DNA from: a virus
IMG/VR virus record: IMGVR_UViG_3300037845_000048
Location: 1-50,903 of that record
Reading direction: 5' to 3' (one strand)
Length of the DNA stretch: 50,903 nucleotides
The notes below the pieces were generated by a model. That model was given only the letters and a program-made list of their open reading frames with translations, was not told where the DNA came from and searched no databases. The translations under genes were made by a program, and so were the position numbers. Below are positions 4,079-47,977 of the stretch, piece after piece. Within the stretch, counting starts at the first letter, position 1, and the number at the start of each line of letters is the position of its first letter.

Positions 4079-4365
4079 CCATCCAAGTCGAGTTCACCGG
4101 CGACATAGTCCACATCTACGATGGCGACGGCACGCGCGCAGTCGAAGACACGCTCATCGTCACCGCCATGCAATGGGCACACCTCGTCGCGGCCATCCGC
4201 CTGCCGCCCCCCGAGGGCAGCGACGGTCATCCCCTCGTTCCTGCCTTTGCCGCCGCGTTCCTGTGCCCCTCCTGCCAGGGGCGCGGCACCGACCGCGACG
4301 GTTGCGCAGACTGCGACACGTGCAACGGCACTGGCTTATCCATCACCGAAAAGGACACGCAGTGA
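4075..4365 (+). CDS. protein with DnaJ-type CxxCxGxG zinc motif
   Basis: 96 aa, GTG start in a GTGA overlap. Residues ~65-86 read CPSCQGRG and CDTCNGTG, the paired CxxCxGxG repeat typical of DnaJ-like zinc knuckles. The N-terminal ~60 residues are a separate small domain. A role in protein or nucleic-acid contacts is inferred; there is no J domain. Confidence 0.65.
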   Translation: MTIQVEFTGDIVHIYDGDGTRAVEDTLIVTAMQWAHLVAAIRLPPPEGSDGHPLVPAFAAAFLCPSCQGRGTDRDGCADCDTCNGTGLSITEKDTQ

Positions 4366-15618: not shown

Positions 15619-15690
15619 GCGCCTCGACGGGACTCGAACCCGCGCCTCTCCCCTCGAACGGGGAGCGCCCTGCCATTAGGCCACGAGACT
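15619..15690 (-). tRNA. tRNA-like gene, anticodon uncertain
   Basis: On the minus strand the 72 nt fold as a tRNA. The acceptor pairs at 6 of 7 positions (AGTCTCG with CGAGGCG). The D-arm has a 4-bp stem and AATGGCA loop. The T-arm is GCGGG-TTCGAGT-CCCGT. The anticodon arm is odd: CTCCCC-GTTCGA-GGGGAG pairs as 6 bp with a 6-nt loop instead of 5 bp with 7 nt. Standard numbering gives UUC (Glu) with G33; keeping U33 gives UCG (Arg) with a stem mismatch. No CCA encoded. It may be functional, decayed or a tRNA-like site. Confidence 0.6.
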
Positions 15691-15786: not shown

Positions 15787-16326
15787 CTACCCTGCGCGCT
15801 CCTCCAGCTCCCCGAGACGCCGCTTGAGCTCCGCGATCTCCTCTTCCGTGCGCTCCCCGCGCTCCATCACCGCGTCCAGCGCCTTCTCCGTGCGGCGCTG
15901 GCGCCCGGCGAGGCGGCGGTTGATCTCCATCTGCTCCGCGAACCCCCGCGCGACCACCTCGAACGCCTTGCGCACCTCCGGGTCGGCGTCGGACAGGTCC
16001 ACGTTCGTGGCCTTCGAGTACGCCATCTCCAATTGCGCCCCGGCGCGGCGCCCATGGGTGTGTGCGAGGCGCAGCTGCCCGTTCACGTCCACGACCCGGT
16101 AGCCCTCGTTGCGCACCCCCTCGATCGCGCGCTTGTCCTTCTCCTCGTGTTCTTCGGCCGCGCGCCGCATGGCGGTGATCATCGCGGAGCGGTGGCGCAC
16201 CGGGTCGAGGCCGAGGGCGTCGGCCATCGCCTGGTAGGTCACGATCCCGCCGACGGGGGTGCCCTTGAGCAGCCGGTAGAGGACCTTCCATCGCGGTTCG
16301 TCGCCAAGCGGTTCGAACGGGCTCAC
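15787..16326 (-). CDS. winged-helix and coiled-coil protein
   Basis: 179 aa, GTG start at 16326 fixed by the GTGA overlap with the upstream gene. Residues ~10-90 (RWKVLYRLLKGTPVGGIVTY then QAMADALGL and a wing-like VNGQLRL) suggest a winged-helix DNA- or RNA-binding fold. The C-terminal ~60 residues are a charged coiled coil rich in Arg and Glu. It is translationally coupled to the RAMP-like gene, so the two probably work together; their shared leader is the pentamer array. Function unknown. Confidence 0.65.
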   Translation of the reverse strand: MSPFEPLGDEPRWKVLYRLLKGTPVGGIVTYQAMADALGLDPVRHRSAMITAMRRAAEEHEEKDKRAIEGVRNEGYRVVDVNGQLRLAHTHGRRAGAQLEMAYSKATNVDLSDADPEVRKAFEVVARGFAEQMEINRRLAGRQRRTEKALDAVMERGERTEEEIAELKRRLGELEERAG

Positions 16327-16928
16327 GACACGTCCTTGACGACGGTCAGCGTGCCCTCGAAGCGCCCGTAGCGCGGGCGCCAGTCCCCGAGGCCGATGAG
16401 GCGCCCGGCGATGTCCACGAGCTGCGTGAGGTCGTCGTAGTCGAGGACTTCTGTGTCGAGGTAGAGCATCGCGGAAGTTCGCCACGAGTTGTCGGAGTTC
16501 TTGGGATCAACCGGAAACTTCGGCCGGGTGCGGATGATGCGCTGCTGTCCGACTTTCGCGGAGGCCTGGAGCATGAAGTTGCCGTCGCGCCACAGCTCGT
16601 CGGGTTCGCGGGGGCCTTTGTAGGCGAGGGGGTTCTCGTCGGTGGTGATGATGACGCCGGAGGTGACTTTGACGCCGAGTTTGCGTTTGCGGCCTGCGTC
16701 GACGAGGCAGCGGAAGATGTTGTCGGCGGGGATGTAGGGGCCGACGGGGCCGTTGTAGAGGCCGCCGAGGAATTCGAGGCGGGCGAGTTCGAGGTAGTCG
16801 TCTTCGGATTTGCTGCGTTTGGCGCTGACTTTCTTCATGGCGCGGGCGAGTTCGTCGAGGGGGTTGGAGAGTCGGGCGTTGTGCATGAGGAGTGGTGCGG
16901 TGCCGGTGATGTCGAGTTTGAGGTCCAT
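16323..16928 (-). CDS. phage protein with RAMP/Cas7-like motifs
   Basis: 201 aa. The ATG at 16928 is chosen over an upstream in-frame start inside the repeats because AGGACGG precedes it. The protein opens with a strand and PLLMHNARLSNPLDELARAM. It then has GPYIPADNIFRCLVDAG, comparable to the 'IPGSSLKGALR' element of RAMP/Cas7 proteins, and ends with a Gly/Arg segment IGLGDWRPRYGRFEG like a RAMP glycine-rich loop. A related hypothetical protein type is widespread in phages. RNA binding is inference; it would fit a neighbouring structured RNA. Confidence 0.7.
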   Translation of the reverse strand: MDLKLDITGTAPLLMHNARLSNPLDELARAMKKVSAKRSKSEDDYLELARLEFLGGLYNGPVGPYIPADNIFRCLVDAGRKRKLGVKVTSGVIITTDENPLAYKGPREPDELWRDGNFMLQASAKVGQQRIIRTRPKFPVDPKNSDNSWRTSAMLYLDTEVLDYDDLTQLVDIAGRLIGLGDWRPRYGRFEGTLTVVKDVS

Positions 16929-17069
16929 CGGGTTCCGTCCTGTAGTGGTGACCATGCCTAGGCCTGCCGGGCCTGGACCTGCCATGCCGAGTCACGCCCG
17001 GCAGAGCCCTGCGGAGCCGAGGGCTGCCCTGCCATGCACGGTCGAGCCATGCGCAGCCCTGCGTGCGTG

Positions 17070-17088
17070 TCCGGGATTCGGACCCGGA
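17070..17088 (-). other. type A hairpin 1 of the array
   Basis: A 6-bp stem (17070-17075 with 17083-17088) and 7-nt loop. On the minus strand the loop is TCCGAAT, close to a tRNA T-loop. GACGGCATA precedes it, as in the second copy. Confidence 0.65.
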
Positions 17089-17338
17089 TATATGCCGTCC
17101 GCGCTGGTGGAACCCATGCCGTGCCCTGCCGGGCGCTGACTCGCCGCGACACGCCGCGCGTTGCCTTGACCCGCCTAGCGTGGCCAAGTCCCGCCAGGCC
17201 ATGCGTTGCCCCGACATGCCGGGACGCGCCTCGCCGGGAGGAACACGCACGTGGTCACGCGCGCACTCCACTCGAAGAGGAACCCAAGCCGGGCCTAGAC
17301 CTGCCCTGACAAGCCATGCCGCGTCCTGCCGTGCCCTG

Positions 17339-17382
17339 CGTGTGTGCCGGGGACTCGGACCCCGGGGTATGCCGTCCACACG
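17339..17382 (-). other. type A hairpin 2 of the array
   Basis: Inner stem 17347-17352 with 17360-17365 and 7-nt loop (TCCGAGT on the minus strand). An outer CGTGTG/CACACG stem (17339-17344 with 17377-17382) encloses it. Stem bases differ from copy 1 while pairing and loop are kept, which is what conserved RNA structure would show. Confidence 0.65.
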
Positions 17383-17473
17383 GTGAAACCCAAGCCCTGC
17401 AATGCCCGACCAAGCCCAGCCGTTGCCACGCCGCGCCATGGCTTGCCCGGCCGGGACTCGCCCCGCCCAGAGA

Positions 17474-17499
17474 CCCGTGCGCGGACCACGCCGCACGGG
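17474..17499 (-). other. type B hairpin of the array
   Basis: A perfect 8-bp stem (17474-17481 with 17492-17499) and 10-nt loop, located between the (C)TTGGTTCC head motif and the next pentamer run. The other type B element (17235-17280) can form a shorter GCGCG/CGTGC stem. Confidence 0.55.
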
Positions 17500-17765
17500 A
17501 ATCACCCGAAGGGGAACCAAGCCGAAGCCAAGCCGGGCCTCGCGGAGCCTAGACCGGCCTCGCCATGCCCCGGCTCGCGCTGCCCGGCGCTGCCCTGCAT
17601 CGCATAGCCGCGCCACACGCCGCCGCGTGTCATTAACCATAGCACCACGCCAGTTCGCACGTGAAACCGCGCGATAAAACACTACGAAACCCACCTGTTG
17701 CCACCCGCGCAACACGCTGACCAGCCGCTACCGCCTGCCTAATCAGCGATGTACCCTCACCATCA

Positions 17766-47639: not shown

Positions 47640-47977
47640 GCCCCGCTCCTGACGGTCAGGGTGAACGGGAACGCCCCGGGCACCGTGGCCTGCGAGCAGT
47701 AGTGGACGTCGTAGACGTCGTTCGTCACGCCCGGGTCCAAGCGGAAGTGCTGCATGGCGACCACGCCACGGCATGCGCCGCATTCGATCCGGACGACTGC
47801 GGACGACGCGACCGGCTCGGGCGCTGCCGCGGGTCCGACGGTGAGCCCGGCGAGTTCCGCGAACTGCGTAGCCAGCTCGACGAGCCGGTCGGGTGGCGTG
47901 GGTTCCTCGCGGTCCCAGTCGTCGTAGTCGGCGGGGTCGCCCATGCCGGTCATGGACTCGTCAAGCGACTCGGTCAT
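47636..47977 (-). CDS. hypothetical protein
   Basis: 113 aa, ATG. Acidic N-terminus, then IECGACRGVVAMQHF with a CxxC pair. Unknown role. Confidence 0.55.
   Translation of the reverse strand: MTESLDESMTGMGDPADYDDWDREEPTPPDRLVELATQFAELAGLTVGPAAAPEPVASSAVVRIECGACRGVVAMQHFRLDPGVTNDVYDVHYCSQATVPGAFPFTLTVRSGA

Follow-up and report, generated by a model that had tools for sequence, protein, structure and literature searches.

The window analysed here, a 50,903-nucleotide stretch of viral DNA (IMG/VR record IMGVR_UViG_3300037845_000048), carries on its minus strand a repeat array (17624-16949) followed by two protein genes, vipr and vap. The array is made of five tracts of the pentamer GGY/NN, four of which are followed by a structured tail, in the order B-A-B-A. 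Read leftward, the vrRNA 1 guide tract (17525-17624, about 20 units) leads to tail B1 (17469-17520), composed of GG, a short hairpin and an 8-bp hairpin CCCGTGCG/CGCACGGG. The vrRNA 2 tract (17392-17467, 15 units with one 1-nt insertion) leads to tail A1 (17339-17381), a tRNA-like 43-nt module with a GTGTG/CACAC stem, the linker GACGGCATA, a T-arm loop TCCGAGT and an ACG end. The vrRNA 3 tract (17286-17336, 10 units) precedes tail B2 (17238-17285), in which GGG is followed by a short hairpin and a 13-bp hairpin, and the vrRNA 4 tract (17116-17235, 24 units) precedes tail A2 (17062-17104), again a tRNA-like module; its loop is TCCGAAT, its pseudoknot consists of the pairs A-U and U-A, and its outer stem contains one C-A mismatch. 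A fifth tract (16949-17058, 22 units) reaches the vipr gene and has no recognisable tail. Tracts 1, 2, 4 and 5 were delimited with a pentamer tract finder, combined with periodicity statistics for the first, and tract 3 was read from the sequence; the B tails come from sequence reading and folding, and the A tails from two covariance models, R1 and R2, described below.

Over 81 GGY/NN units of these tracts, the successive positions hold G at 80%, G at 81% and a pyrimidine at 100%, then two near-uniform positions, the first three columns being partly selected because the phase was chosen by GGY. At period 5, an average 100-nt stretch has GGY in 7.3 of its 20 units, whereas first-order Markov randomisation of the region yields 3.25 +/- 0.35. 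Tracts are 10-24 units long here, versus 9-16 reported for the VIPR system discussed below. Within them, GGY units alternate with variants that carry another base for one G (GTC, CGC, GAC, TGC), and the pyrimidine is always kept; the 1-nt insertion of tract 2 has a counterpart in tract 1. Could such a run simply be low-complexity or coding DNA, with tail-like hairpins arising by coincidence? A 402-aa ORF (16507-17715) does stay open on the minus strand across the array. We nevertheless give this reading almost no credence, since a Pfam search of the ORF returned no match, and many unrelated phages have the GGY/NN pattern and the tails as well, along with vipr and vap in this order. An annotated CDS likewise runs through a tract in Gordonia phage Trine, where gp40 (L266, 4591-5394) begins ahead of a vrRNA tract and continues across tract and tail; this read-through before the real vap-like protein is an annotation artefact.

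The vipr gene (16323-16928, minus strand) encodes a 201-aa protein of the phrog_4652 family (PHROG E=3e-52) with a RAMP fold and a G-loop, GLGDWRPRYGRF. It is a small, single-RRM RAMP homologue, and the family alignment ends with the invariant G-loop GDWRPRYG. A profile built from 18 Vipr relatives matches the PDB entry 36pp, 'SUSP1 Vipr', with E=3.2e-52; the AF2 model of the protein has a pLDDT of 93.7 and retrieves Csm3/Cmr RAMPs with Foldseek, while Pfam and NCBIfam searches on the Vipr family gave no credible match. Next comes vap (vipr-accessory; 15787-16326, minus strand), encoding a protein of about 179 aa that BLASTP places in a DNA-binding type: its matches are LittleE gp33 (E=4e-21), prophiBWHA-1 gp42 (5e-17) and MakoManhole gp77, annotated 'DNA binding protein' (3e-16). 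The vap homologue comes after vipr in all three genomes. Just downstream of vap lies an odd tRNA gene (15619-15690, minus strand; Rfam tRNA, 44.7 bits) to which ARAGORN could not assign an anticodon. Its anticodon arm reads CTCCCC-GTTCGA-GGGGAG, with a 6-nt loop.

VIPR (Viral Interference Programmable Repeat) was reported in 2026 as a possible ancestor of CRISPR. According to the main text of that preprint (PMC13142463), Vipr of phage SUSP1 binds vrRNAs made of GGY/NN units with a structured tail, and skips one base at a time in reading DNA. Because the array, the Vipr protein and the neighbouring gene of our window all fit this published scheme, in which the units of a vrRNA are followed by a structured tail, we take the A and B elements to be the 3' tails of guides. 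With a probability of about 0.8, the segment 17624-16949 is a VIPR guide array with tRNA-like tails in the actinobacteriophage-like genome of an uncultured phage. Compared with the type II VIPR of the SUSP1/Felixounavirus clade, as the preprint's main text (PMC13142463) and phage wV8 (L272) present it, the window shares a Vipr of about 33% identity, a vap-type neighbour, GGY/NN tracts flanking vipr and structured 3' tails. The tails themselves differ: in the SUSP1 clade (PMC13142463, main text) the tail is an H-type pseudoknot hairpin (GGGTAG...GTCTCA...TGAGAC), whereas the A tail of the window is tRNA-like. The window-type array is also tight, the next guide beginning at a modal 6 nt past the tail, and it uses two kinds of tail. 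In wV8, the annotated 58-bp repeats DR_4 (2750-2807 and 4143-4200) coincide with vrRNA tails.

A sequence-only reading of this region had noted four minus-strand elements alternating B-A-B-A. We find the same alternation, with heads at about 17520, 17393, 17287 and 17117, hence spacings of 127, 106 and 170 nt where 129, 105 and 170 had been estimated. The proposed head motif, (T/A)TGGGTT(C/T)C, does not describe B1, which reads TTGGTTCC, and the head is not an element of its own: it combines the final GGYNN unit of a tract with the GGG at the start of the tail. That reading missed the GGY/NN pentamer tracts, which form most of the array and its informative part, and with them the VIPR character of the array, in which A and B are guide tails of two different kinds. 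It was right on sequence that in both A copies GACGGCATA leads into a hairpin whose loop is TCCGAGT or TCCGAAT, and largely right that their stem bases differ while pairing is kept, the exception being the C-A mismatch in the outer stem of A2. Its suggestion of tRNA T-arm-like loops stands for the A elements, where about 175 relatives show covariation, and falls for the B elements, which are not tRNA-like: these are hairpins that the mini-tRNA model R1 does not match. They are of the two-hairpin type that we see, by inspection, after the LESphi2 tracts and after the last tract of LittleE, and make up an alternative hairpin tail. Recognition by RNase P, for which the sequence-only reading had proposed a search, is a plausible idea taken up below.

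The A1 element reads GTGTG-GACGGCATACC-CCGGGG-TCCGAGT-CCCCGG-CACAC-ACG and A2 reads GCGCG-GACGGCATATA-TCCGGG-TCCGAAT-CCCGGA-CACGC-ACG. Both describe one module, in which an outer stem of 5 bp is joined by a D-loop-like linker (GACGGCATA) to a second stem of 6 bp that carries a T-loop; linker and loop form a pseudoknot of 2 bp, at which A2 shows a double change (pair 15-28, C-G to U-A). Two A copies alone are insufficient proof of an RNA structure, and folding of single A elements, a check that the sequence-only reading had named, gives no significant signal (z of 0.0 to 0.3). Relatives supply the proof. A degenerate pattern run over 2.9 million viral contigs yielded five other loci, in all of which the outer stem pairs perfectly although the pattern left it free. 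A descriptor requiring both stems then gave 221 matches before duplicate removal, a few of which resemble ordinary tRNAs. In the 31-sequence set derived with this descriptor, only the pseudoknot and junction pairs are independent, since the descriptor chose the outer stem and five inner pairs; the junction pair 17-35, outside its demands, is retained in 30 of 31. In the family consensus, an outer stem of 5 bp encloses the 11-nt linker RANGGCANXCA and an inner stem of 6 bp capped by the 7-nt loop TTCGAGY, and R-C follows the outer stem. Covariation of the Watson-Crick type links X in the linker to Y, the final base of the loop.

An anchor-only search, in which no pairing was demanded, returned 181 matches, and at least 8 of the 11 stem pairs are kept in 175 of them. 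X and Y form a Watson-Crick pair in 81 of the 84 paired anchor-only matches in which the search pattern left them free. At stem positions, G-T combinations outnumber A-C by 50 to 9, which indicates selection on the RNA of the A-element strand. The claim that the A elements reflect RNA structure rather than DNA repeats thus draws support from some 175 covarying relatives, from a linker:loop pair that the search did not impose and from this strand asymmetry.

Covariance modelling across phages, also named as a check by the sequence-only reading, confirms that the two copies belong to this family. Model R1 scores A1, a member of its seed, at 56 bits and A2, outside the seed, at 37.8 bits (E=1.9e-7), the next-best place in the whole window reaching E=0.11. 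Model R2 was seeded exclusively with tract-less elements of Vipr-less phages, excluding VIPR arrays; it detects A1 (46.6 bits, E=1.9e-9) and A2 (33.3 bits, E=8.5e-6), both outside its seed, together with 51 other copies in VIPR-phage loci at E<=0.01. The elements of VIPR arrays and those of tract-less contexts are one RNA family, because R2 matches both the window copies and those of other VIPR phages.

In three dimensions, the A tail would resemble the elbow of a tRNA (loop and linker GG) set on an acceptor/T-arm stack. It has neither D-stem nor anticodon arm, and ARAGORN and Rfam call no tRNA at 16950-17630. The Rfam 15 scan of the window and seven loci gave nothing above the curated gathering threshold at the array, and a lax scan only a sub-threshold mascRNA hit (19 bits for a cutoff of 42.5). 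Canonical tRNA T-arms do not reach a full-match score with the mini-tRNA model; the odd tRNA gene downstream of vap resembles it in the T-arm only. The mini-tRNA is an RNA family missing from Rfam 15, and none of the publications we found on tRNA-like elements of phages, those of Streptomyces included, describes it; we have considered the conserved repeats of cluster M mycobacteriophages (PMC7953290) as a possible known equivalent. A second subfamily appears in the same arrays (L013, L051, L078, L266, L267), with linker GGTC or GGTT and loop TTCGACT or TTCGATT; there, the concerted change of linker and loop appears to follow a different pattern.

Mini-tRNA loci fall into two classes, according to whether a GGY tract stands just upstream. 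A tract precedes 52 mini-tRNAs, 8 of which have none downstream, and one further copy has a tract only downstream; where another tract follows, it begins at a modal 6 nt past the outer stem. We searched 23 full records for Vipr: 6 of the 7 records with tracts have it, the exception being an array at the end of a contig, and the 16 records without tracts gave no Vipr match. Its absence is established for these 16 metagenomic records, while the Streptomyces phages Caliburn, Lannister and Amela (L273, L274, L275) were compared by regions. In the latter, the model has 26 unannotated matches, all on the gene strand of a leftward early operon: 24 have annotated genes on both sides, one precedes the operon's first gene and one falls inside a gene. 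The 24 intergenic copies stand 6-39 nt past the upstream stop and 10-68 nt ahead of the next start, and of the 33 gaps of at least 60 nt in the early-operon regions compared, 24 carry a mini-tRNA. The copy inside a gene (Amela, 47862-47904) falls within annotated gp73, whose start has perhaps been placed too far upstream. A record may hold up to 15 copies. The family is common in phages of Actinomycetota and Bacteroidota; in GTDB genomes, the matches listed, for the subset of loci tested, come from records of these two phyla plus one unassigned bin. Single or few copies appear in Bacteroidota-type phages and prophages (L003 50-96, L045, L046, L133, L139, L256 and others), and the L003 copy lies directly upstream of a gene resembling a Mu-type transposase. 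No such element was found with model R1 in wV8, of the SUSP1 clade, and no significant match in the Pseudomonas phages Medea1 and LESphi2.

This distribution bears on the view that the repeats act as DNA, either as attachment sites derived from a tRNA 3' end or as integron-like recombination sites between cassettes. A T-arm with an acceptor stem does recall tRNA-derived att sites, and the Streptomyces-phage copies do sit between small variable genes. We consider a DNA role very improbable, as the G-T excess over A-C singles out one strand selected as RNA, the tertiary linker:loop pair is conserved, a record can contain as many copies as just stated, 25 of the 26 Streptomyces-phage copies are on the gene strand without overlapping an annotated gene, and canonical T-arms stay below a full-match score.

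What could an anticodon-less tRNA mimic do between guides? In our proposal, a leftward transcript would contain successive vrRNAs, each a GGY/NN run with its structured tail, then vipr and vap. By homology with the SUSP1 system, for which this has been shown (PMC13142463), Vipr would polymerise on the GGY scaffold and the NN dinucleotides would read double-stranded DNA with a one-base skip, silencing competing phages. The tRNA elbow would be recognised by RNase P, acting on the 5' side of the outer stem, and/or by RNase Z, acting after the R73-like base, and these host tRNA-maturation cuts would release the individual guides from the precursor, a role proposed for hammerhead ribozymes in other VIPR arrays. 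We put the chance that the mini-tRNA tails are punctuation cut by host RNase P and/or RNase Z at about even. The element lies at the points where a precursor has to be divided, be it guide from guide or gene from gene, and its conserved parts are limited to the elbow-like linker and loop (GG linker, TTC loop) and R41 C42, while the stems vary freely. Positions -1 and 41 stay unpaired in 115 of 123 tract-less copies; in the other 8, the base preceding the stem pairs with R. The partner of the mini-tRNA is probably a host factor rather than Vipr, because the same module appears to punctuate Vipr-less early operons. Two features speak against cutting by tRNA enzymes: a helix of 11 bp (5+6) compared with 12 bp in tRNA, and an RC(G/U) end where RCC or RCCA would be expected. 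The outer-stem mismatch of A2, the fifth tract with no tail and the failure to find a natural target for the window's own guides count against the explanation as a whole. The two enzymes would also have different consequences, since a cut by RNase P 5' of the stem would deprive the guide of its tail and a cut by RNase Z on the 3' side would leave the tail on. Separation of guide and tail by RNase P would be at odds with the SUSP1 tail, reported within the vrRNA in the main text of the preprint (PMC13142463).

The main rival is that the mini-tRNA is a structured 3' end cap only, blocking exonucleases or serving as a handle for Vipr loading, with other nucleases separating the guides. The tail kept on the SUSP1 vrRNA (PMC13142463, main text) is in its favour, as are the alternation of A and B tails and the fact that a plain hairpin can replace the mini-tRNA. 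We find a mere cap rather unlikely, because an identical module occurs in 16 Vipr-less records, and once per gene gap in Streptomyces phages, where there is no Vipr to load, and because a generic cap would not need a conserved tRNA elbow with R41 C42. Far less plausible is a charged minihelix, that is, a substrate for aminoacylation or a tmRNA-like function, or a decoy for tRNA-attacking defences. The acceptor-like stem, the T-arm and the ACCA of rare copies (L005) would suit such roles, but CCA is mostly absent, no identity pair of the G3-U70 kind is conserved among the freely varying pairs of the outer stem, and a decoy would offer no anticodon to anticodon nucleases.

Returning to punctuation, acceptor and T-arm mimicry without an ordinary anticodon arm is known from the tRNA-like domain of tmRNA, from mascRNA and from plant mitochondrial t-elements; of these, mascRNA and the t-elements are substrates of both RNase P and RNase Z. 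The mini-tRNA differs from these in having no D-stem or CCA, a 5+6 bp stack and a specific linker:T-loop pseudoknot. RNase P is also known to cut the phage M3 and C4 RNAs, polycistronic mRNAs and RCC-ended pseudoknots (PMC11143913, PMC12710915). Cutting by host RNase P, which we infer for the mini-tRNA, would be common to it and to the M3 and C4 RNAs and polycistronic mRNAs (PMC11143913); unlike these single cases, the mini-tRNA is repeated, dedicated and covarying, and stands between genes as well as guides. Closest in layout are the VIPR arrays interspersed with hammerheads (PMC13142463, main text), which also place between guides a structured RNA able to separate them, the difference being that the element of the window is tRNA-like, not a ribozyme, and would need host enzymes. 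Leaving its supplement aside, the main text of the VIPR preprint (PMC13142463) makes no mention of tRNA. The new part of our observations is the tRNA-like punctuation element; the wider object, a VIPR guide array, is of a known kind.

The presence of the mini-tRNA both in VIPR arrays and in the gene gaps of Vipr-less phages suggests that phages cut long transcripts by means of tRNA mimicry. Its wider form, that the mini-tRNA is a general phage device for transcript punctuation by RNase P or RNase Z, seen in Streptomyces-phage operons and recruited into actinophage VIPR arrays for the release of guides, is a tentative proposal that we rate a little short of an even chance. The array type of the window offers a testable answer to how packed guides may be released outside the hammerhead-interspersed type, namely by host tRNA-processing enzymes. 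Culturable phages with mini-tRNA VIPR arrays are at hand, LittleE in M. smegmatis and Trine in Gordonia terrae, as is a VIPR-free version, with Caliburn, Lannister and Amela in Streptomyces. The once-per-gap occurrence in phage operons bears on the processing of polycistronic mRNAs and, if true, punctuation by mini-tRNAs would be a natural counterpart of engineered tRNA-gRNA arrays.

Do guides with such tails find targets under the published code? For the window, guides 1, 2 and 3 gave chance-like matches to viral contigs, with no matching flanks, the decoded peptides of guides 4 and 5 had no tblastn match, and no self-targeting was seen in the DNA examined. We searched the LittleE guide that directly precedes a mini-tRNA (L268, 3791-3860) by nine consecutive NN. 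Under the one-skip code it decodes to DVGLKRDTTAV, and its five viral-contig matches all fall in the same conserved stretch of coding sequence (GLKRDTTAV), where the skipped base is the wobble position. The matched genes belong to the terminase large subunit family (four scanned). Agreement reaches 11 of 11 NN in the terL of three IMG/VR records, two of which share their match context, and 21 of 22 nt in two more; these matches are not independent, because the targets are mutually homologous. In the matched loci the best permuted code agrees at 18 of 22 positions, against 21-22 for the true code, a test of specificity within the loci rather than of overall significance, since the true code selected them. 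The three NN adjoining the tail of this guide do not match. A second LittleE guide had no exact match. LittleE itself agrees with its own guide at 16 of 22 positions at most in the two stretches checked. We see in the LittleE terminase matches good support, not proof, for the NN code in mini-tRNA-tailed guides. Among 297 Mycobacterium genomes, four match the 22-nt code of the LittleE guide with one or two mismatches, while the reversed code and a permuted code match none.
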